This document shows positions 53,647 through 64,000 of a DNA stretch of 64,000 nt, one piece after another. This stretch comes from Agromyces mediolanus. Lineage in GTDB: Bacteria > Actinomycetota > Actinomycetes > Actinomycetales > Microbacteriaceae. The stretch lies in contig NZ_JAMBNX010000001.1 in assembly GCF_023715325.1 (NCBI RefSeq), forward strand, positions 310,001 to 374,000, in the 5' to 3' direction. Numbering within the stretch: position 1 is the first letter of the stretch; every line of letters starts with the position of its first letter. The notes below the pieces were generated by a model. It ran no database searches. It was not told the origin of the DNA and saw only the letters and a list, made by a program, of their open reading frames with translations. The translations under genes were made by a program, and so were the position numbers.

Positions 53647-54300
53647 ATGACCGTTCCCTTCGTCGCCTCCCCGTCGTGGCTCCCCGGCGCCGCCACGGGC
53701 TCGGCCGCGCCGTCGAGGCGAGCACCCGACGCCGGCGAGGGCCGGCCGGGGGCGGCGGCGTCCGCCGACGAGCAGCGGGCACCGGGCTCGCCGCTCCCTG
53801 CGCATCCGAGCGCGGCATCCCGCGTCCCGCCGCCGGTCCCGCGAGCGCTCGAGCTCGAACTCCTCGGGGAGCTCGCCCCCTTCGCGAGCTTTCCCGACGT
53901 CACCGACCTCTTCGTGAACAGCGAGCGCGGGCTCTGGGTCGACCGCGGCGCGGGCGCCCTGCACGAACCGGCGTGGGCCGCCGGCGAGGCCGAGGTCCGT
54001 GCGCTCGCGGTGCGACTCGTCGCCCGCGGCGGGCGGCATCTCGACGAAGCGAGTCCAGCGGTCGACGTCCGGCTCGGCTCGGGCATTCGGGTGCACGCGG
54101 TCCTCCCGCCGATCTCGACGGTCGGCACCCTCCTCTCGGTCCGCATCCCGCGGGCCGCCGGGCACTCGCTCGCCGGGCTCGCGCGGCTCGGCATGCTCGA
54201 CGACCCCCAGCTGCGCCGAGTGGAGCGGGCCGTCGTGGAGCGCGAGAACCTGCTCATCACCGGCGCCGGCGGCACCGGCAATACCACATGGCATCTCTGA
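53647..54300 (+). pseudogene. tadA: TadA/CpaF secretion ATPase, truncated by island insertion
   Basis: The first 217 codons of a Tad pilus assembly ATPase. A variable N-terminus (1-65) leads into the N-terminal domain: ELELLGELAPFASFPDVTDL, FVNSERGLWVDRG, ASPAVDVRLGSGIRVHAVLP, and LLSVRIPR. The frame then enters the Walker A sequence LLITGAGGTG, but the Lys codon and everything after it is replaced: the reading continues NTTWHL and stops. The break coincides with the first copy of a repeat shared with 61811 and 63069, so a site-specific insertion split the gene. The ATP-binding part is missing, so the fragment cannot work. The 3' part should lie beyond the window. Confidence 0.9.
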
Positions 54301-54301
54301 C
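54280..54301. repeat. left junction of the island (attL-like), repeat copy 1
   Basis: AATACCACATG-G-CATCTCTGAC directly abuts tadA sequence on its left (GGCACCGGC). The right half recurs at 61811-61832 and 63069-63090. The tadA target would read AAGACCAC, so the shared crossover core is probably AAxACCAC. Confidence 0.8.
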
Positions 54302-54354
54302 CCCAATAGACCCCGCGTCTGCGATACGCGGCAGCTCCGTGTGATCGTTTGGCG

Positions 54355-54381
54355 TTGAAAACTAAAGCGATGTGCTACGTT
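54355..54381 (+). promoter_or_regulatory. promoter of cassette 1
   Basis: TTGAAA (54355-54360) and TACGTT (54376-54381), 15 bases apart, lie just inside the left junction and before the first cassette gene. Spacing is short, so this is provisional. Confidence 0.45.
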
Positions 54382-54409
54382 TGGGGTATCCGGATGAAGG
54401 GAGCCCACT

Positions 54410-55138
54410 GTGGCGATCGACGAGGGGCGCGCGTGGGCGCTGCGAACGCTGGGAGCCGACGGCGTGCTGGTGCGAGAGCAGATCTCGTCCATCATCCGCG
54501 ACTGCCACGAGAAGATGGCGAACGCGCAGGCCGAGGCCGAGATGAAGCACACGGGCGTGTATGGCCAGATCTGGCGGAAGTGTTTGGACGAGTTTGTGAC
54601 GGTGCTAGGGCGCCTGCCCTCGGCTGAGATCGTTCCGCGCCGGGGCTACAAGCTGGTCGCTTTCAACGGGGTGATCTTGTTTCCGTGGCGGTTCGCGCGG
54701 GAGCGATCCACGGACATTGGCTCGCGGCCGTTCGCCGTCTCGGACACTCGGATCTCCCTGTTCGGTGAGGAGCGCGAATCGACGCAGCAGCGTCTGGACA
54801 TCGAGTTCGAGCACCCCGAGTTGACCGAGGAAGAGCGGGAGCTGCTCGACGCCGAGAGCAAAGCGCTCGAGGAGGCGCTGTCGACCCACTCCCGCGTGGT
54901 CGTCGTCCCGTATGCGAGCAACCCGTTCGCGCTCTACAGCGTCGACTGGGGCGAGGCGACGTTGGGAAGCGACGGCTACCTCACCTTCGCGTCGATGGAA
55001 TCGCTGCTCGAAGTAGGCGCAGCCTCCCTGGTGGATCTGGACCTGACGGACGAGTCGTTCTCCGACGGGCCGATCCCGCGCCCGGATCTGGGGGTGAAGG
55101 GCGACGAGGCGGACGGAGAGGCTGATGGACGACCGTGA
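54410..55138 (+). CDS. unknown protein, first gene of cassette 1
   Basis: A 242-residue acidic protein I do not recognise. No signal peptide or membrane segment. Notable stretches are AWALRTLGADGVLVREQISS, PRRGYKLVAFNGVILFPWRF and an acidic helical region (HPELTEEERELLDAESKALE). The last part, VVVVPYASNPFALYSVDWGE, looks like a strand-rich domain. GTG 54410 follows GAAGGGAG. It overlaps the XRE-ImmA gene by 14 bases, so the two are coupled. Such small partners of ImmA/IrrE-type proteases are often their substrate or antitoxin-like partner, which is only an inference here. Confidence 0.7.
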   Translation: MAIDEGRAWALRTLGADGVLVREQISSIIRDCHEKMANAQAEAEMKHTGVYGQIWRKCLDEFVTVLGRLPSAEIVPRRGYKLVAFNGVILFPWRFARERSTDIGSRPFAVSDTRISLFGEERESTQQRLDIEFEHPELTEEERELLDAESKALEEALSTHSRVVVVPYASNPFALYSVDWGEATLGSDGYLTFASMESLLEVGAASLVDLDLTDESFSDGPIPRPDLGVKGDEADGEADGRP

Positions 55139-56288
55139 CACCCTCTTCTCGCTGCTCGGAGCAACCGACCGTCCCGATCTCGACGCCGTCGCTGACGCGT
55201 TCGACCCAGCTCGTCTGACGCAGGCGCGTTTCGCGGCCGGCTTGTCGAAGGCGAAGCTCGCTGAGCTGGTCGGGGTCACGCCTGCGGCGATCGGTCAGTA
55301 CGAGTCGCGAGTGGTAACGCCGCGCCGCGACCTGCTGCCGGTGCTTGCGCGCGAGCTGGATGTCCCGGTGGACTACTTCGCCACGGGTCGACCCATCGGC
55401 CGCGTTGACGGCTCGGAGGCGCATTTCCGGAGCCTGCGCTCGACCACCGCGCGGGATCGGTCCAAGGCGATCGCGTTCATTGAGCAGGTCTGGGAGCTGA
55501 CGTTCGCGTTAGAGAAGAAGGTCCGGTTCCCCGATGTCGACTTGCCGGTGGTGGATCGGCAGCAAGCGGATCCCGTTTCCGCGGCGCAGGCGCTTCGCGA
55601 GCATTGGGGTCTGGGCGTGAAGCCGGTCAAGCATCTGGTCGCGCTGACGGAATCGCACGGGATCGTCGTGAGCCTGCTGACGTTGGCGAACGCCGATGTA
55701 GCCCGAGTCGGCGCGTTCTCGACGTCTCGCTTGGCTCGCCCGGTCATCGTGGTGACGCCCGAGCGCGCGAAGTCGGTGTTCGTCTACCGGTTCACGGTCG
55801 CCCACGAGTTGGGGCACCTGCTCTTGCACGGCGAGGCCGTTCCAGGTGACCAGCAGCAGGAGCGAGAAGCCGATCAATTCGCTGCTGAGTTCCTGACTCC
55901 ACGTTCCCAGATTGTGAACTTGCTGCCGCGGACCGTGAACCTTTCCCGGCTCGATGAGCTCTCGCGGCATTGGGGTGTGTCGGTGGATTCGCTGCTGCTA
56001 CGGATGAAGGAGACCGGTACGGTCTCCGACGCTTCGATCCGTCGGGGCTACCAGAAGCTGAACCAGCTGCGCAGCTCCTCACTGGACGCGCCCGAGCCGG
56101 TGAACGCATATCCGGGTGAGGTGCCGTCGATGTTGGCCGAGGCTGCCCGGCTTGCCGATCAAATCGGCTTCGCGCAGATAGACCTCGCCCGCGAGCTGCG
56201 TTGGCACCCGGCACGTGTGCGCGAAGTCCTGGGTGTCGACGATCCCAGGCCGACATTGAAGCTTGTCACCGATCCCTCACCGGAGTAG
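55125..56288 (+). CDS. XRE-type HTH fused to ImmA/IrrE metallopeptidase
   Basis: A 387-residue two-domain protein. The XRE helix-turn-helix (about 30-85) has RFAAGLSKAKLAELVGVTPA and IGQYESRVVTPRRDLLPVLA. The COG2856-type zinc peptidase domain (about 190-290) has HELGH at His227-His231, within FTVAHELGHLLLHGEA, and the downstream Glu in EREADQFAAEFLTP. ImmA-type proteases cleave repressors in mobile elements and some defence or toxin-antitoxin loci. It probably regulates this cassette in answer to damage or infection. Confidence 0.9.
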   Translation: MDDRDTLFSLLGATDRPDLDAVADAFDPARLTQARFAAGLSKAKLAELVGVTPAAIGQYESRVVTPRRDLLPVLARELDVPVDYFATGRPIGRVDGSEAHFRSLRSTTARDRSKAIAFIEQVWELTFALEKKVRFPDVDLPVVDRQQADPVSAAQALREHWGLGVKPVKHLVALTESHGIVVSLLTLANADVARVGAFSTSRLARPVIVVTPERAKSVFVYRFTVAHELGHLLLHGEAVPGDQQQEREADQFAAEFLTPRSQIVNLLPRTVNLSRLDELSRHWGVSVDSLLLRMKETGTVSDASIRRGYQKLNQLRSSSLDAPEPVNAYPGEVPSMLAEAARLADQIGFAQIDLARELRWHPARVREVLGVDDPRPTLKLVTDPSPE

Positions 56289-56404
56289 GGCTGGAATGGT
56301 GTCGTCGAGGTCGAGGAGTAGCGCGCAGATGACGGCCCTCCGGAACGGTAACGACGTCGCCCAGCGGCGATGGGATTCGGCAGCCGCGAGACGGAGGATT
56401 AGGG

Positions 56405-57469
56405 ATGAGCCGATCAAGTTCGAAGACCCGGCGAGCTGCTCGGGCGGCGGGCGTGACTGCTCGTAGCGCCCAGAGTTCCGGCATCGTAAAGTGCTACGTC
56501 GAGCGGTTCGAGAACGCGGTCGGCGCACCGGACCTCCGCCTTCGCGAGAAGTCAACCAAGCGGCTCGTGCGGGTTCTGACGGACAACCAGATGTTCAGGT
56601 CATTCGCGCCGCTGTCGAACCTTCTGCAGGACTGCTACGCGCATGGAGGCGGCCTCGTTGAGCCGCGGAGTCGCGCGGAGTACGTCGCCATCGCCGCGCC
56701 GATTGTGAAACAAGGCGCTCACGAGATAGCTGTCGCGTTCGAGGGCTTCTCGGTTAAGGTCCACATCGTGACGGCGGACGTCGCATCTCCTCCGACATCC
56801 GTGTGGGCTTACATCGAGGAGTACCCGGTCGATGGCGGGGGCCTTGGTCTGCGTCTTCGCCAGAAGGTCACCGGCCGGAAGGTCGAGATGTACGGCAGGA
56901 ACCAGGATCACTTGCTCACATTCCTCAGCAGCCCGCAATTCACAGGTGCTGACTCGCACATGCCGAACATCTACCAGAAGGACGGCTTCGACGACTACGT
57001 GCTGGTTTCCGGAGGTGCTGCCACGGACTCCTATGACGTGCTGCTCTTCAACGACGGTGCCGAGCTCACTTATCTGCTTGGCCCGACGCCCGACACCGCA
57101 TACAGGGACGCGTTCCGTGAGCTCACGGATGAGTCAGCGCCCAAGGCGCACGCACGTACGGCACAGATGCACTTCGACACGGGCCGGTACCGCGAGGCCG
57201 TGCTCGCCGCGCGACTCGCTGTCGAGACGGCATGCGGCGGACGTGGGCCCGACGTGAAGCGCCGGCTCGCTAACGCTCCTGCTGACGTTGCGGCTGCGGG
57301 TGATGCGCTGTACGGGAAGCGCCACATCGCCGTCCATGAGGGCGACACGCGGGTCGAGCAACCCGCCATCTCGATCGCCAACGACACCCTGTACGGCCTC
57401 GCCACACAGGCGATCCTCGCGATGCACAGCGTCCTCGCCTACCTAGAGTCAGACAGTTTCAGTAGCTGA
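56405..57469 (+). CDS. HEPN-like protein, candidate toxin/effector
   Basis: A 354-residue protein. The N-terminal 225 residues are a mixed alpha/beta region I do not recognise. The C-terminal 110 residues are helical (HFDTGRYREAVLAARLAVET) and contain R306-x4-H311 in GKRHIAVHEGD. This matches the R-x4-6-H pattern of HEPN ribonucleases and transferase partners, typically found in toxins and abortive-infection proteins. ATG 56405 follows GGAGG. It stands between the ImmA-type gene and the Hachiman-like pair, 20 bases before HamA. No confident family name. Confidence 0.65.
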   Translation: MSRSSSKTRRAARAAGVTARSAQSSGIVKCYVERFENAVGAPDLRLREKSTKRLVRVLTDNQMFRSFAPLSNLLQDCYAHGGGLVEPRSRAEYVAIAAPIVKQGAHEIAVAFEGFSVKVHIVTADVASPPTSVWAYIEEYPVDGGGLGLRLRQKVTGRKVEMYGRNQDHLLTFLSSPQFTGADSHMPNIYQKDGFDDYVLVSGGAATDSYDVLLFNDGAELTYLLGPTPDTAYRDAFRELTDESAPKAHARTAQMHFDTGRYREAVLAARLAVETACGGRGPDVKRRLANAPADVAAAGDALYGKRHIAVHEGDTRVEQPAISIANDTLYGLATQAILAMHSVLAYLESDSFSS

Positions 57470-57489
57470 GCCTCTGCCACGATTGAGGG

Positions 57490-58260
57490 ATGGCACCGCT
57501 TTCTTCGTGGACGACTTCCACGCGCGAGCTGCTGAGGCGGCACGCGATGGTGCACATGGTTGCCTCGCCGTCGACCATCGGGTCGGGGGTCGACTGGGCT
57601 GCGTCACAGATCCCGAACCAGTACACGGGTCCGGACCGCGTCGCCGCGATCCTGGCCGATCTGGGGAAGCCTGCTGCGGCCGAATACTTGGAAGGGAAGC
57701 TCCCTATAAGCAAGCGCACCCGCTCGGGCGACCTCGGAGAGATCATCGGAGCGCAGTACGCGGCGCTTGAGCTGGGGTTTCGAGTCGTGGAACGCCTGCG
57801 GTGGAAGGACCACCGTGAGATGTCGATGCGTGGAGATGACCTGGTTGGGGTGCGCGCGGCCACCAACGGATCGCTCGAATTGCTGAAGGGCGAAGCCAAG
57901 AGCCGTGCGACGCTCGGATCGGCGACGGTCACAGACGCGGACCTTGCGCTCAGACGCGATCGGGGACGCCCATCGCCTCACGCTCTCAGCTTCGTCGCTG
58001 ACCGACTCCACGAACTCGGCGAGCATGCATTGGCGAACCTTGTCGACGACGCTCAACTGACTACAGGGATCAGCCAACGGCAGGTGGTGCAACTGCTTTT
58101 CACCTTCACGGGCAACGACCCACGCAACCTCCTTCGGACAAACACGACCGCATATCGAGGCGGCGTAAAGCGCCTCGCCGTCGGCCTGCAGGTCTCAGAG
58201 CATCAAGCGTTCATCGCGAACGTGTACTCGAAAGCGATCGCCAATGCCCGAGACAGTTGA
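57490..58260 (+). CDS. HamA-like (DUF1837) nuclease of a Hachiman system
   Basis: A 256-residue protein resembling Hachiman subunit HamA. Residues 80-140 carry SGDLGEIIGAQYA, then LRWKDHREMSMRGDDLVGV and ELLKGEAKSRA. This gives a Glu84, Asp117 and Glu135-x-Lys137 arrangement of the PD-(D/E)xK nuclease fold as in DUF1837. HamA is held by the helicase HamB and degrades DNA once the complex senses phage-induced DNA states. It overlaps the helicase gene by 17 bases, the gene order expected for hamA-hamB. Assignment rests on motif pattern plus helicase partner. Confidence 0.78.
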   Translation: MAPLSSWTTSTRELLRRHAMVHMVASPSTIGSGVDWAASQIPNQYTGPDRVAAILADLGKPAAAEYLEGKLPISKRTRSGDLGEIIGAQYAALELGFRVVERLRWKDHREMSMRGDDLVGVRAATNGSLELLKGEAKSRATLGSATVTDADLALRRDRGRPSPHALSFVADRLHELGEHALANLVDDAQLTTGISQRQVVQLLFTFTGNDPRNLLRTNTTAYRGGVKRLAVGLQVSEHQAFIANVYSKAIANARDS

Positions 58261-61200
58261 GGACATTGAGGCCGCGATCGAGGAGGCGACCACCCCCGGC
58301 TTTCGCGAACAGCTTCTCGCGCGAGGCGAAGCCCGGTCGATGATCTGGCGTGACGGCGTCCTGCCCGAGGAGGCGCCCGCGTTCGATCAGCTACTCAGCT
58401 ACGACCTTCTCTCCTACGGCTATTCGCTCCTGGGCCTGGGGCTACGTCTCGTGGAGGCGAATGGGTCGCAAAGCCTCGCCCAACGCGCCTTCGAGGGCGC
58501 AGCCACAGCCATCGAATCAGTCATCGCCAGAGGACCTAACTCGCGCGAACGGGGCTTCCACCGTGTCGTCGCCGCAGCCGCGTACCACCTCGGCAGTTAC
58601 TCCGCGCGGGCATACTCGCTGCTTCAGACAGCGCTCGATTCCGGTGAAGTCACGATTGGCGAGCGATCCCTCATCCACATCATCCGCCGAGAACTCGACA
58701 CCCTGGACGCGCTCATCCTGAGCCACCGCGACGAGGACGTGGCAGCAGACGCCAACCTGGTTGAGACGTTGCGCGGGCTCTTCGAGTCCATGAGCGATGA
58801 GGACCAGGACGCTGACAGCGGCGACACCGATGTCATCGACGTTGTCGACCTCGCACTGACGGACGCGTTCGTCGGTGCGATCAGCATGGCGCTGCTTGCG
58901 TTCGAGCGGGGCGAGCAAGCGCTGCTGGATGAGGCCCTCAGCACACTGCAGGTCGGTCTAGGAGCCGCCAGCGAATTGAACATGGTTCCGCAGTGGTGGT
59001 GCCATCGACTTGCGATTCACCTACTCCGCGGCCTCTGGGAGGCTAGTTTCCATCGCCTGCTCCCGGACGGTCCCATCGACGGTGATGGTGGCGACTGGGC
59101 ACGGCTGCGTGCGACGTTCATTGCATCCCTCTTCCGGAGGCGACGCTCGGAGATCGACCTATGGCCGTCGCAGCTCGCCGCCGCAGAGCGGGTGCTGAAC
59201 ACCAGCGAGAACCTGGTGTTGTCTCTCCCGACGAGCGCCGGCAAGACCCGGATTGCCGAACTTTGCATCCTCGCGTGCCTAGCCGAGGGCCGGCGGGTTG
59301 TGTTCGTAACCCCGTTGCGGGCGCTGTCAGCCCAGACCGAAACGGCCCTGCAACGCACCTTCACCCCTCTGGGGAAAACCGTCACATCCCTCTACGGCGC
59401 GATCGGGGCCAGCAGCGCCGACGAGGATTTGCTGCGAGAGAGGGACATCGTCGTCGCCACTCCCGAGAAGCTCGACTTCGCCCTGCGCAACGACCCAACA
59501 CTCCTCGACGACGTAGGGCTTGTCGTCCTCGACGAGGGGCACATGATCGGGGCGGATGAACGTGAGGTCCGATACGAAGTTCAGGTACAACGACTGCTGC
59601 GCCGTGAGGATGCGGCCGCCAGACGTATCATCTGCCTCTCGGCGATCCTGCCAGACGGAGACGAAGTCGAGGACTTCGTCAACTGGCTCACCGATGACCA
59701 ACCCGACGGTCTCATCGCGAGCTCGTGGCGGCCGACGAAACTTCGCTATGGCGAAGTGATCTGGCAAGGCGATCGAGCCCGCCTGAGCATCATCGTGGGA
59801 GACGAGGAGCCCTTCGTGCCCCGGTTCCTCGAACCCTTCGTTCCACCGATCGGTCGCAGGACGACGCCCTTCCCCAAGGATCCGCAGGAGTTGACGCTGG
59901 CTACCGCCTGGCGGCTCGTCGACGACGGGCAGACCGTCCTGATCTTCTGCCCACTCAAGTCATCGGTGAACGCCTTTGCCAAAGTCATCGTCGACCTTGA
60001 TGCGCGCGGAGCACTCGGGAGTGTCTTCGAAGGAGATCCGGGCGACCTCGCCTCGGCCATCGCGATCGGAGAGGAATGGTTTGGCCGAGATCACCCGATC
60101 CTCGCCTGTCTGAGACTCGGCGTAGCGATTCATCACGGATCGCTGCCCGCACCCTACCGACGAGAGGTGGAAAGGCTGCTACAGCGAGGAGCGCTGAAGG
60201 TTACGGTCTCTTCACCGACCCTCGCCCAGGGACTCAACCTCTCAGCCAGCGCGCTCGTAATGCACAGCCTCTGGCGCAACCGGGAACTGATCAAGGCGTC
60301 TGAGTTCCGCAACATCGTCGGCAGAGCTGGCCGAGCGTTCGTGGACTCCGTCGGCCTCGTCGTCCACCCAATCTTCAAGGACGTGTCCCGAGGGAGGCGG
60401 AACTGGAGGCAGCTGGTCGAGGACACGGCTCTGCGCGACATGGAAAGCGGCCTACTGCAACTGGTGGTGAACCTGTTCGCCCGGATGCAGGCCAAGCACG
60501 GTCTCCGGGACCTGGACGCGCTGCTGGAATACGTCGCCGGCACAGCGGCGTGGGATTACCCAGAAGTTGTGGCCGAGAGCGAGGAGGAAGCCGAGCGTTC
60601 CCGAACTGCGTGGCGCTCGCAGCTCGCTAGCCTCGACAACGCCCTCCTCAGTCTGCTCAACGATTCCGCGGTTGCGGAGGAAGGAGTCGAGGGGGCTCTC
60701 GATGACGTGCTCGCCTCGTCCCTTTGGGCCAGGAGCTTGGCTCGACGGCAGGGGCCCGTTCAGACAGCGCTTCGAGCCGGTCTGACCGCGCGCGCACGCT
60801 TCCTCTGGAGCCAGTCAACTGCGGCACAGCGCCGAGGGTACTTCCTTGCGGGGGTCGGTCTCGAGACCGGACGCCAACTCGATGAGCACGCCAGCATCTT
60901 GGAGCAGTCCCTGCGCGACGCAGACGAGGGCATCCGAATCGGCGACCCCGATGCCGCAATCGATGCCCTAACGAGCTTCGCCAGGATCGCATTCGGCATT
61001 CACCCCTTCGCGCCCCGCGCTCTTCCTCCACATTGGGAAGGCGTCCTCGCTGGTTGGCTTCGCGGTGAGGACCCCTCGCAGATAGCGGGGGAGGAGGTCA
61101 CGGACACGCTGGAATTCATTGAGGACTCGCTGGCCTACAGGCTGCCATGGGCGCTGGAAGCGGTCCGGGTCCGAGCGACCGCCCACGAAGAGCCTGTAGG

Positions 61201-61744
61201 CGATCTTTGGGCGCTCGTCACCGACGAGCACGGACTCGCAGTTGCGGCGCTAGAAACAGGGACGCTCAACCGTTCCGCCGCGCTGCTCATGCAGGCCGGA
61301 TTCTCTTCCCGAGCCGGTGCTCTCGCCGCGGTCACGGCCGGAGACGGCACCTTCACGACCGTGTCGGAGCTTCACCAGTGGATGAACTCGGAGGAGGTCC
61401 GGCGACGCGCAGACGACTCGCACTGGCCGACTGTGTCATCTCACGATCTCTGGGTCGGTTTCATCGGCCGTAGCACTGCTGCACCGGAGAGAACCTGGAT
61501 CAACACGGTCGAGGATGCCGCGGTGACGTGGCTCCCCGATCATCAGCCGAGTAGCGGGACGCCGTATCGGGCTGTGTCCATTGCGAACGGGGAGACCATT
61601 CTCCAGGCCGCTGACGGTCGACGGGCCGGTCTGCTTGAGGAACCGCTCAATCCGAATCGGCGCGGCTTGCTCACAGTCACCGGGGCCAGCCCTGCCAACG
61701 TCGTCGAACTTCGCTATCGAGGCCCATCCGACCTTCATGCATAG
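58244..61744 (+). CDS. HamB-like superfamily 2 helicase of a Hachiman system
   Basis: An 1166-residue Ski2-like DExH helicase. A 310-residue N-terminal helical region precedes RecA domain 1: Q-like LWPSQLAAAERVL, Walker A LPTSAGKTRIAEL (about 328-340), FVTPLRALSAQ (Ia), ATPEKLDF, and DEGH at Asp430 in place of DEAH. Motif III reads LSAI. RecA domain 2 has LIFCPLKSSVNAFA, VSSPTLAQGLNLSA (V) and NIVGRAGRAF (VI, near 690). A long C-terminal region (700-1166) has no recognised motif. Together with the overlapping HamA-like gene it fits a Hachiman defence system. Confidence 0.82.
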   Translation: MPETVEDIEAAIEEATTPGFREQLLARGEARSMIWRDGVLPEEAPAFDQLLSYDLLSYGYSLLGLGLRLVEANGSQSLAQRAFEGAATAIESVIARGPNSRERGFHRVVAAAAYHLGSYSARAYSLLQTALDSGEVTIGERSLIHIIRRELDTLDALILSHRDEDVAADANLVETLRGLFESMSDEDQDADSGDTDVIDVVDLALTDAFVGAISMALLAFERGEQALLDEALSTLQVGLGAASELNMVPQWWCHRLAIHLLRGLWEASFHRLLPDGPIDGDGGDWARLRATFIASLFRRRRSEIDLWPSQLAAAERVLNTSENLVLSLPTSAGKTRIAELCILACLAEGRRVVFVTPLRALSAQTETALQRTFTPLGKTVTSLYGAIGASSADEDLLRERDIVVATPEKLDFALRNDPTLLDDVGLVVLDEGHMIGADEREVRYEVQVQRLLRREDAAARRIICLSAILPDGDEVEDFVNWLTDDQPDGLIASSWRPTKLRYGEVIWQGDRARLSIIVGDEEPFVPRFLEPFVPPIGRRTTPFPKDPQELTLATAWRLVDDGQTVLIFCPLKSSVNAFAKVIVDLDARGALGSVFEGDPGDLASAIAIGEEWFGRDHPILACLRLGVAIHHGSLPAPYRREVERLLQRGALKVTVSSPTLAQGLNLSASALVMHSLWRNRELIKASEFRNIVGRAGRAFVDSVGLVVHPIFKDVSRGRRNWRQLVEDTALRDMESGLLQLVVNLFARMQAKHGLRDLDALLEYVAGTAAWDYPEVVAESEEEAERSRTAWRSQLASLDNALLSLLNDSAVAEEGVEGALDDVLASSLWARSLARRQGPVQTALRAGLTARARFLWSQSTAAQRRGYFLAGVGLETGRQLDEHASILEQSLRDADEGIRIGDPDAAIDALTSFARIAFGIHPFAPRALPPHWEGVLAGWLRGEDPSQIAGEEVTDTLEFIEDSLAYRLPWALEAVRVRATAHEEPVGDLWALVTDEHGLAVAALETGTLNRSAALLMQAGFSSRAGALAAVTAGDGTFTTVSELHQWMNSEEVRRRADDSHWPTVSSHDLWVGFIGRSTAAPERTWINTVEDAAVTWLPDHQPSSGTPYRAVSIANGETILQAADGRRAGLLEEPLNPNRRGLLTVTGASPANVVELRYRGPSDLHA

Positions 61745-61781
61745 CGGTGTCGCGTGAATCCCAGATCAGGCGAGCATTCCT

Positions 61782-61832
61782 GCGAGGAAATGTAATGCGG
61801 GATTGCAGCGAATACCACATGCAATCTCTGAC
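61782..61832. repeat. cassette junction 1 (attP-like), repeat copy 2
   Basis: A 51-base unit starting GCGAGGAAATGTAATGCGGG and ending in AATACCACATG then AATCTCTGAC (61811-61832). GATTGCA (61801-61807) and TGCAATC (61819-61825) form an inverted repeat around the GCGAATACCAC core. This resembles paired recombinase core sites. It matches junction 2 over its whole length. Confidence 0.85.
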
Positions 61833-61855
61833 GCCAGTACGAGGGTGGCCCGCCG

Positions 61856-61861
61856 TATGGT
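61856..61861 (+). promoter_or_regulatory. -10 box of the cassette 2 gene
   Basis: TATGGT ends six bases before ATG 61868, predicting a leaderless transcript that starts within the cassette. Confidence 0.45.
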
Positions 61862-61867
61862 CGGAGC

Positions 61868-62959
61868 ATGAGTCAGGAGTGGGCGCGACACCGTGACGTG
61901 GATCTTGAGGGAGCCGCGTCGGCCACCGATGCTTACATCGAGGCTCATTCATCTGCATCGGACTCGATCGAGGTGTCGTGGCGAGTGCTGCACTCGCTCA
62001 TTGACCTGATCCCGATGACGGCGCAGAACGCTTTCTCGGGCAATCTTGCTCCAGCGTTCGAGGCAGAGCGCGAGGCTCGCACATCGTTCACCCTTGCGCG
62101 GATAGGACTCTACAAGCAGGCGCTCGTCTCGCTCCGAAGCGTTCTCGAACTCGGAATGCTCTCGGTGTACTGGGACGCGCACGATGAAGCGCATCTGGAC
62201 ATCCAGAGATGGAGAGCCGGCGCGGAGAGAACTCCGAGCCTTGAGGCAGTCGAGAGGCGCCTGAGAGAAGTGCGCGGCGTCGCGATCTATCTTGAATCCG
62301 ATCCGGCCCTGTTCGACCGTATCCGCCAACTCAGCGACGACCTTGGGGCGTATGTGCACACCCGCGGGCACCGCAGCTCGAGCGCCGGGCTCGTCCCGTT
62401 CACGAACATCGCGAGCTTCCACGCTGAAGCATTCGACCTCTGGGTGCGACGAGTGACTGAGGTCGTGCAGTTCGTGCTTGTGATCCACCTCATGAAGTAT
62501 CCGGTTGGTCTACAGGTGACACCCCTGAGTGAGAAGTTCGGCCTCAACCCGCCGGCCGGCGGCCTTGTCGAGCCTCATGTGCGGGAAATGTACCGAGCGT
62601 TCCTGGAGCCTGAGATGCGCGACCGGCTCCAGTCGATGAGTGATGGCGATACTGAAGCGGTCGGTATCCGTGAGTGGGTGGAGAGCCTTCCCACCTTGTC
62701 CGAAGAAGACTGGCGTCAGGAGCTACTGAAGCATGATCGTCAGTCGATCGAATCAGGCGGCTACGAGATGTGGGCCAAGCTCCGCGATTCAGTGGACGAG
62801 CACCTCGAAGGTCAGGTGACGGATGCAGAGTGGAGCGAGCGCCAGGCATACCGCGAGGACCTGCGTCAGTGGGCCGAGCAGGAGGGGTTAGCCACGCTCG
62901 AAGATGTCATCGCGCGGCAACGGGCTCGCATCGCGGAGCGGAGCGCAGAGGAGCAGTAG
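61868..62959 (+). CDS. unknown helical protein, sole gene of cassette 2
   Basis: A 363-residue soluble, mainly helical protein I cannot assign. The N-terminal half has LYKQALVSLRSVLELGMLSV and LFDRIRQLSDDLGAYVHTRG. This arrangement (long helix with R, then L-S-x-x-x-x-Y-V-H) recalls HEPN-like or abortive-infection proteins but lacks a clean R-x4-6-H with neighbours. The C-terminal part is charged (RQWAEQEGLATLEDVIARQR) and may be a coiled coil. It lies alone between two copies of the island repeat, so it is a single-gene cassette; a defence or counter-defence role is an inference. Confidence 0.65.
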   Translation: MSQEWARHRDVDLEGAASATDAYIEAHSSASDSIEVSWRVLHSLIDLIPMTAQNAFSGNLAPAFEAEREARTSFTLARIGLYKQALVSLRSVLELGMLSVYWDAHDEAHLDIQRWRAGAERTPSLEAVERRLREVRGVAIYLESDPALFDRIRQLSDDLGAYVHTRGHRSSSAGLVPFTNIASFHAEAFDLWVRRVTEVVQFVLVIHLMKYPVGLQVTPLSEKFGLNPPAGGLVEPHVREMYRAFLEPEMRDRLQSMSDGDTEAVGIREWVESLPTLSEEDWRQELLKHDRQSIESGGYEMWAKLRDSVDEHLEGQVTDAEWSERQAYREDLRQWAEQEGLATLEDVIARQRARIAERSAEEQ

Positions 62960-63040
62960 TGCCGACCGTACTCGGCTGAACGCATGAAGTGAGGTGTGCG
63001 CGGCCCCGACCGTTATAGCCCTGGTCAGGCCGCAGTCCAG

Positions 63041-63090
63041 GCGAGCAATTGTAGGTGGGATCGCAGCGAATACCACATGGAATCTCTGAC
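63041..63090. repeat. cassette junction 2 (attP-like), repeat copy 3
   Basis: A 50-base unit aligned with junction 1: GCGAGCAATTGTAGGTGGGA, then TCGCAGCG, AATACCACATGG and AATCTCTGAC. Both units are preceded by the related stretch CAGGCGAGCA. The rest of the gap to 63242 holds no gene that I can support. Confidence 0.85.
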
Positions 63091-63242
63091 CCAGGTAGTT
63101 GCGGGCGCTCCGAGCAACAGTCAGTTCGTTCGCAGAGGCCGGAACTCGGCAGCGGCTGCGCGACGTCGCGTGGGCCGATCCGCGCACCTGCTCTGAGGAC
63201 GGTCGCTTCCCCCCGTCCTTTGCAGAGTCAGGAGGACGGCCC

Positions 63243-64000
63243 ATGTCAATGTCGATCGCATCCCCACCCGAGCCCCGAGGGGTGCATCCGCCCGGCGCGG
63301 TGATCCGTCGTCTCTCTGCCGTCCTCGTCGTGCTGTTCGTGCTGGCGGGCACGGTCGTGCTCGGTGCGGCGCCGGCGCACGCGGGCAGCCTGGGGACCGG
63401 CTACTACGGTGACTCGGGTTTCCTGGGGGCGTACAACACGGACGTCGACGGCAGGCAGGGGTACTGCATCGACCTCGGCGCGAACTCCCCGTTCGATCCC
63501 ACGTTGGGGCCGCAGACGGTGACCTCCCTGGACTCGCTATCCCGCCAGCAGCTTGCCGAGCTGAACTACGTGCTGGACAGGTGGGGCCAGTCGGGCGATC
63601 CCAACCTCACGGCGGCGGTCGCGCTGTATGTGTGGTCGGTCGCCGATGCCGGCGTCTACAACAGCCACGGGATGTCTGGCGACGACTACTACGTCGCCCG
63701 CGCGCCCGTCGGCGTGCGCGGCACGATCCTGGCGAACCTCGCTGTCATGCGGCAGGAGGCCGCCATCAACGCGGTCACCGATCCGTCGCTGTCGGTGAGC
63801 ATCGCCATGTCGGATCAGTACGCCGGCACGGTGACGGTCACCGCTCACCCGGCGTCGCTTCAGGGTGGGGCGGCGCTGACGGGCGCGGTGTTCGCGGACG
63901 GTTCCACGTCGCGCACGCTCGGCGCTGGGCAGTACGGCATTACGGGCATCCCGGCCGACGGGGTGCCGTCCTATCGGATCGAGGCGAGCATGAGCGTCGC
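63243..64000 (+). CDS. secreted surface protein with thioester-domain-like N-terminus (3' end outside window)
   Basis: The first 252 residues of a longer protein, open at the window edge. A signal peptide (RRLSAVLVVLFVLAGTVVL, cleavage near APAHA/GS at about residue 48) leads to a domain with GYCIDLGANSPFD (Cys about 77). It continues with LAELNYVLDRWGQS and AAVALYVWSVADAG. This layout resembles thioester (TQxA) domains of Gram-positive adhesins, but the Gln expected before the A-x-W motif is not evident, so an internal thioester may not form. A second, strand-rich domain begins near residue 170. AGGAGG precedes ATG 63243. GC is host-like again. Confidence 0.75.
   Translation, partial: MSMSIASPPEPRGVHPPGAVIRRLSAVLVVLFVLAGTVVLGAAPAHAGSLGTGYYGDSGFLGAYNTDVDGRQGYCIDLGANSPFDPTLGPQTVTSLDSLSRQQLAELNYVLDRWGQSGDPNLTAAVALYVWSVADAGVYNSHGMSGDDYYVARAPVGVRGTILANLAVMRQEAAINAVTDPSLSVSIAMSDQYAGTVTVTAHPASLQGGAALTGAVFADGSTSRTLGAGQYGITGIPADGVPSYRIEASMSV

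Follow-up and report, generated by a model that had tools for sequence, protein, structure and literature searches.

The window analysed here, a stretch of 64,000 bases of the Agromyces mediolanus genome (C11:310001-374000), shows the left end of an insertion of 82,571 bases in tadA, made up of two cassettes (cassette 1, 7,531 bases; cassette 2, 1,258 bases) and a unit of 73.8 kb, with the 3′ half of tadA located at C11:446851. Positions without a contig prefix are those of the window, and its features are all on the + strand. The 5′ part of tadA (53820..54281), which codes for a T2SSE-type ATPase, is cut in the P-loop, where the translation reads ITGAGGTG, then asparagine in place of lysine and, six codons on, a stop. 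The attL site (54280..54308) is formed by the core dinucleotide AA and the left end (LE) of cassette 1, AATACCACATGGCATCTCTGACCCCAATA. Cassette 1 finishes with a right end (RE, 61768..61812) terminating in GGGATTGCAGCG and AA, the latter being also the core of the LE of cassette 2 (61811..61839). The RE of cassette 2 (63039..63070), which lacks a 13-base palindrome (TTCCTGCGAGGAA) present in that of cassette 1, terminates in GTAGGTGGGATCGCAGCG and AA, and is followed by the LE of the 73.8 kb unit (63069..63097), which extends to C11:446851.

This third unit encodes a relaxase (TrwC), a coupling protein of the TraG/TraD type and also a large serine recombinase (LSR; P0001, 509 aa), all of them past the window, the LSR gene adjoining the 3′ half of tadA at attR. 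Because it combines a relaxase, a coupling protein and an LSR beside the tadA 3′ half, it is called here an integrative and conjugative element (ICE). Its body starts in the window (63099..64000) with a first long open reading frame (ORF) of 1048 aa that runs past the window end. Among ten ORFs of the ICE body that were scanned, three large ones had no Pfam family at 1e-5. The region C11:376369-406000 of the ICE contains a pyridine nucleotide-disulphide oxidoreductase gene, and also ORFs that looked MerR-like, IS21-like and metal-ATPase-like when judged by eye only.

An earlier note on this DNA had described three copies of a 22-base repeat, in one orientation, at 54280, 61811 and 63069, and the positions were correct, the copy at 63069 being the left end of the ICE. 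Three matches in the window were reached by none of 100 window shuffles (mean 0.00). In the whole 4.04 Mb genome, an exact search for AATACCACATGNNATCTCTGAC found three copies, at the unit ends only, and no further one appeared with up to 3 mismatches. The 29 bases said to be shared to the left of copies 2 and 3 correspond to a real similarity, but looser than claimed: near-identity holds for about 12 bases adjacent to the core (GGGATYGCAGCG), and farther left there is a CAGGCGAGCA block with unequal spacing.

Concerning the contents of the cassettes, cassette 1 carries, in this order, a gene for a 242 aa protein of no family (54410..55138), a gene with helix-turn-helix (HTH) and ImmA/IrrE-type domains (55125..56288; Peptidase_M78, PADLOC RmrA), which also matched an spr1629-like repressor/antitoxin model under its cut-off, a gene for a 354 aa protein (56405..57469), and the two genes of the Hachiman defence system, HamA (57490..58260; Pfam HamA 28.3 bits with cut-off 25, PADLOC HamA E 6.1e-96) and the helicase HamB (58244..61744; PADLOC HamB 1659.7 bits). 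The sole long gene of cassette 2 (61868..62959) encodes a 363 aa protein, for which the predicted structure model was unusable (mean pLDDT 43). Neither this protein nor that of 354 aa had a family in Pfam, PADLOC, NCBIfam or PHROGs. The two short units are devoid of recombinase genes, as had been stated, and the proposal that such units are non-autonomous was borne out for them. On the other hand, the claim that each unit has its own promoter found no support, since 0 sigma-70-like sites were found versus 1.0 expected from shuffles, in a scan that actinobacterial promoters may not fit. The recombinase gene expected past position 64000 does exist, as the LSR gene at the far end of the insertion.

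Target codon, unit ends and occupied and empty sites

The loci used for comparing identity, P-loops and arm symmetry contain a set of 42 left-end sites, from which a weak one (L139) was left out. The LE of the cassettes is conserved as AA-TACCACATG, seven variable bases and TGAC.CCA.TA, and the RE is conserved as approximately GAAAATGTAGGKGGGATTGCAGCG-AA. Considering what precedes each left end, 23 sites (20 non-redundant) come after an RE of the form TTGCAGCG plus AA, 12 come after a P-loop codon, and 7 come after neither. The lengths of sixteen units that run from LE to LE and finish with an RE range from 1.18 to 17.7 kb, with near-identical copies counted. An RE followed by a K-T codon in place of an LE was found in genomes G107 and G042, and also at L117:19458, where the gene is putative. 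At L117:9434, L117:13177 (reversed coordinates) and L039:97, the left ends are preceded by yet another flank, roughly CTGTGAGTCTTCGCG followed by GGC before AA; it could perhaps be another right-end class or remnants.

The target of the insertions is the lysine codon of the P-loop (Walker A motif) in ATPase genes. In all the junctions of a left end with a host gene that were read (12/12: L004, L130, L115, L137, L112, L121, L145, L146, L037, L131, M. azadirachtae and Microbacterium Gd 4-13), G-x-x-x-x-G is followed by AA-TAC instead of AAG-AC, so that asparagine replaces the P-loop lysine and translation ends six codons later. Further P-loop targets are tadA in G042 and an ABC transporter gene in G107, where the left end is more diverged. 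The tadA 3′ half was identified by homology at 9 loci, while the other target genes were named from translation only.

Within the genus, this tadA was present at E 1e-20 in 3/60 genomes, one in each of the empty, single-unit and multi-unit states. Genome G033 has the empty site, an uninterrupted tadA reading ITGAGGTGKTTLLAALLGAAPPHERIVVIEDVGEAVI, which is reproduced up to that point when the flanks of the window's insertion are joined at the core. Genome G042 has one unit, of 13 kb, which carries two LSR genes side by side and is delimited by P-loop-AA-LE and RE-AA-K-T-T, and the window genome has the multi-unit array. Serial insertion, as advanced in the earlier note, is thus well founded. 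The window genome contains a second T2SSE-type ATPase gene (C11:698362-699120, open frame of 422 aa), so the loss of the interrupted tadA may be buffered.

Concerning the distribution of the site, an exact scan of genome_contigs for the left-end motif gave 25 matches in 24 stretches, all with actinobacterial titles, versus about 0.5 expected by chance (our uniform-base estimate). In the genus, the left-end pattern with 2 mismatches occurred in 1/60 genomes, and a widened pattern in 2/60. A junction pattern with 1 mismatch matched 2/396 genomes of the order: that of the window, and G725, whose single match on reading is likely due to chance. A search at up to 3 mismatches, run on 20 entries chosen for having the motif or a related LSR (18 distinct genomes, G119 and G413 being repeats of G451 and G456), gave matches in 19/20 entries, G107 being the one without, and its reversed control gave 1 match (G179). 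Carriage by phages was considered and dropped: a pattern of only 15 fixed bases, loose enough to match by chance, was present in 48 IMG/VR stretches, but 0/48 matches had CC..T[AG] downstream or GCAGCG nearby, and the junction TTGCAGCGAATACCACATG gave 0 stretches in the IMG/VR search. Among plasmids, no near DNA match to the array was found, and the LSR search gave one distant protein (36.7%, Mycobacterium avium plasmid).

Homologous units between different neighbours

The same units are found with different neighbours. Compostimonas, M. rhizomatis and a Propionibacteriales metagenome-assembled genome (MAG) have a common unit at 99.8-99.9% identity between flanking genes that differ; the identity starts 5-7 bases ahead of the T of the LE, and the MAG contig stops within the unit. 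L037 and L115 are 99.9% identical over 5.4 kb, starting 5 bases ahead of the T of the LE, with differing flanking genes. Between its two sites, cassette 1 of the window is matched in M. azadirachtae with identities of 93.6% and 97.0%, but it stands beside tadA in the window, and in M. azadirachtae it is the third unit of an array and is followed by another unit. In Frigoribacterium JB110, a 9.8 kb unit separates the homologues (87% and 89%) of two units that follow directly on each other in M. azadirachtae, and a fragment of cassette 2 (188 bp, 96.8%) occurs in Compostimonas (L117) after another flank.

The left end of the ICE is 90.4% identical to that of Compostimonas and 92.5% to that of M. 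rhizomatis, where one different cassette, of 12.5 kb, precedes the close relative of the ICE. In the window and MAG 72-143 the ICE is preceded by two cassettes. M. ihumii has a related element of 46.9 kb with no second site seen. Since homology stops at the core and the neighbours differ, it is concluded that the cassettes and the ICE have moved separately. The earlier note had regarded a whole block conserved in relatives as contrary to its reading, and the outcome was divided, as MAG 72-143 matches such a block and Compostimonas, M. rhizomatis, M. ihumii and M. azadirachtae vary.

Both ends of the ICE were found on one contig in five genomes. Its right arm, CACCAAGTGGAG plus AA, was found at 9/15 searched loci, each time followed by K-T-T or K-S-T; two more matches at 6 mismatches in the same search were taken as chance. 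As the nine ICE right ends found directly abut an ATPase P-loop, stacking of cassettes appears to occur on the left side of the ICE only.

Recombinases and the proposed movement of cassettes

Units with a pair of neighbouring LSR genes, whether intact or broken, were found in Compostimonas, M. rhizomatis, the Propionibacteriales MAG, Janibacter, Microbacterium Gd 4-13, G107 and G042. These units, of about 12-18 kb, have the same two ends as the cassettes. Their recombinases, LSR-A and LSR-B, are respectively about 51-53% and 36-40% identical to the ICE LSR. In a phylogenetic tree, LSR-A, LSR-B and the ICE LSRs formed separate, supported clades, a topology in which the long branch of LSR-B may have been joined falsely to the outgroup. 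Sequences that were broken or incomplete did not enter the tree (the two LSRs of G107, LSR-B of Janibacter, the fragments of Frigoribacterium, the split ICE LSR of M. ihumii and the LSR of G179), and neither did the M. rhizomatis and Propionibacteriales pairs, which are near copies of that of Compostimonas. P0001 and LSR-A passed the Pfam cut-offs for the Resolvase, Recombinase and zinc-ribbon domains, and LSR-B missed the zinc ribbon only (22.6 versus 25.3 bits). At E 1e-60, an LSR was found in 11/398 genomes of the family; LSR-B at E 1e-80 was found in 0/394 genomes of the class, a set without positive control. A third, sister clade of LSRs, 66-68% identical to the ICE LSR, has its own right-end arm, and in 3/4 cases (L141 being the exception) its ends abut K-T-T. 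The P-loop sites of this clade (L133:8079, L146:843 to L147:about 305, and L127:7806) lie, by our reading, in a putative HrpB-like helicase gene once and in putative conjugative relaxase(-helicase) genes twice.

The type of right end goes with the type of recombinase. The two-LSR units with the right end in hand end in 6/6 cases with TTGCAGCG plus AA (L115, L137, L112, Gd 4-13, G107 and G042; five distinct, L115 and L137 being near-identical), which is the right end of the cassettes. The symmetry of the arms about the core was also different: 16/26 positions in the ICE (shuffle p 2.5e-4) and 17/26 in an S-type element (0/20000 shuffles), but 4-9/26 at 20 cassette junctions (p 0.39-0.94). It is chiefly because the single-LSR sites are symmetric and the cassette sites are not that two proteins are proposed to read the two arms.

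Homologues of the first gene of cassette 1 (242 aa) stand at the left end of the two-LSR units of Compostimonas (95%) and Microbacterium Gd 4-13 (86%), as well as at that of the Hachiman cassette in M. azadirachtae (98%), followed in those units by a similar HTH-ImmA gene, so cassette 1 may share ancestry with the two-LSR units. The units of Janibacter and G042 start with other genes; that of Janibacter includes a type IIG restriction gene, which an ORF of G042 appears to resemble. A unit of Frigoribacterium carries ABC transporter genes, and several of the proteins have no family. In Lacisediminihabitans (L118), JetB, JetC and JetD of the Wadjet system lie left of a junction and are candidate cassette cargo, the left end of the unit being outside the stretch. 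Judging from the family names, the cargo would defend the hosts.

It seems likely that the recombinase-less cassettes are moved in trans by the two-LSR system and stack on the left side of the ICE. The array would have been built by site-specific recombination at the two-base AA core, with a cassette circle (RE-AA-LE) recombining with a host-AA-LE junction or with an empty P-loop codon (GGN-AAG-AC[C/G]). Units would stack head to tail, here to the left of a conjugative element with a like LE and the same target. The most likely enzyme for moving the cassettes of the window would be the adjacent pair, in which LSR-A probably reads the LE and LSR-B probably reads the RE. The ICE, with one LSR and a two-fold symmetric attP, could bring the array to new hosts. 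A broader formulation, which we advance tentatively, would see a serine-recombinase counterpart of integrons, with two divergent LSRs, one for each arm, moving small defence and transport cassettes singly between P-loop codons and arrays across actinobacteria, while conjugative elements with a single LSR of that clade would serve as landing platform and vehicle. The codons of the Walker A motif being the target, sites would then be plentiful in nearly any genome.

Several points weigh against the movement of cassettes in trans by two LSRs. Excision, circles and recombination are putative steps, and stacking at a host-AA-LE junction is not the standard attP x attB reaction of serine integrases. 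The symmetry of single-LSR sites comes from one ICE and one S-type element, and 7/42 left ends (two in L117, and L111, L039, L119, L122 and L146:8928) have left flanks that are neither RE nor P-loop. MAG 72-143 carries the same two cassettes and the ICE as one block, 99.9% identical over 13.6 kb. The window genome has one LSR of this clade at E 1e-60 and no LSR-B at E 1e-80, and the recombinase of the cassettes may thus be missing from the host in which they now reside. Some recombinases are broken: LSR-A of G107 has an in-frame stop, the Janibacter match has a stop, and Janibacter LSR-B and the M. ihumii ICE LSR are each in two pieces.

An alternative is that the single LSR of the ICE captures and moves the cassettes, the two-LSR units being a parallel lineage with like ends and target. 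Cassette and ICE left ends are indeed alike, and only one LSR of the clade was found in the window genome at E 1e-60, and likewise in MAG 72-143 and M. azadirachtae at E 1e-50, although all three carry cassettes. Nevertheless, this alternative is considered unlikely, as the right ends of the cassettes agree with those of two-LSR units and differ from all nine ICE right ends found, and the cassette arms do not have the symmetry expected of one LSR. A somewhat less probable alternative is that the repeats are old insertion ends, with units now shuffled or deleted by homologous recombination and no dedicated cassette recombinase. It would suit the 5/15 site-bearing genomes without an LSR of the clade at E 1e-50, a further point against a dedicated pair, and each RE-LE junction offers a conserved sequence of a few tens of bases. 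Such segments are, however, short for homologous recombination, and the core-to-core boundaries, the variety of ATPase genes and genera and the uninterrupted site require site-specific insertion at some stage.

There is also a gene of the Phage_integrase family, a tyrosine recombinase, in the ICE body (C11:433858-434937, about 12 kb from the right end), which counts as well against the two-LSR proposal. It could fit an integron-like array moved as folded single strands, and the one-way array of short cassettes with a common site agrees with this, as does one of the four folds obtained from both strands of two junctions (z -2.03, with 7/200 shuffles folding as well). However, the remaining three gave z -0.64 to -1.06, and it is LSR genes, rather than the Phage_integrase gene, that lie beside the ICE ends and within units. 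This alternative is very improbable.

If the movement by two LSRs is true, it would mean that actinobacteria have a modular gene exchange comparable to that of staphylococcal cassette chromosome (SCC) elements or integrons. A defined recombination site would then be linked with genes of defence, those of Hachiman in the window and, in related bacteria, those of type IIG restriction and perhaps of Wadjet. Cassettes, including those with genes of no family, could be found in a genome by the pattern of the site consensus. Two LSRs in one reaction, and the codons of a protein motif in different ATPase genes as target, would be of interest for the study and use of serine integrases.

Comparison with known systems

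At the level of titles and abstract openings, with preprints and most subscription journals outside coverage, no recognisable description of this system was found in the literature. The cheese ICE RUSTI was considered as a relative and dropped, as the available part of its report describes a XerD-type tyrosine recombinase and tRNA-Leu (PMC5526665), and the available part of PMC6579920 contained nothing closer. The best NCBIfam match of the recombinases was XisF of the fdxN element (NF041201), with 100.7 bits for the ICE LSR, 92.3 for LSR-A and, narrowly, 47.0 for LSR-B, all three far under the cut-off of 375 bits.

As in other ICEs with a large serine integrase, the LSR of the 73.8 kb element is located at one end, and the element also encodes the TrwC relaxase and the coupling protein of the TraG/TraD type. 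Unlike them, it has separate cassettes stacked on its left, with a left end of the same kind. The array resembles integrons in its small cassettes placed head to tail, its common site and its variable cargo, but it differs in having no clear junction hairpin, in the LSRs beside the ends, and in that some units are large and have their own recombinases.

The closest parallel in working is SCC. As far as the available parts of PMC6243372 and PMC6222049 describe them, SCC and pseudo-SCC composite islands and the enterococcal cassette chromosome have paired LSRs, single or tandem units at one gene site with bounding repeats, recombinase-less units, and cargo that includes restriction-modification and heavy-metal resistance. 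The present system shares with SCC (CcrA/CcrB, rlmH site) a pair of LSRs proposed to act together, units alone or in tandem, bounding direct repeats, units without recombinase and cargo of that kind. It differs in several respects. The ICE LSR, LSR-A and LSR-B scored 20-46 bits against the CcrA/CcrB models, with cut-offs of 700 and 900 (NF047343, 900; NF047344, 700). Insertion takes place in the P-loop lysine codon of various ATPase genes, breaking the gene, whereas SCC is inserted at the 3′ end of rlmH (orfX). The hosts are actinobacterial, and a conjugative element has the same left end and target. Because two features that define SCC, the Ccr-family recombinases and the rlmH site, are absent, the system can be described as SCC-like in its working, but not as SCC.

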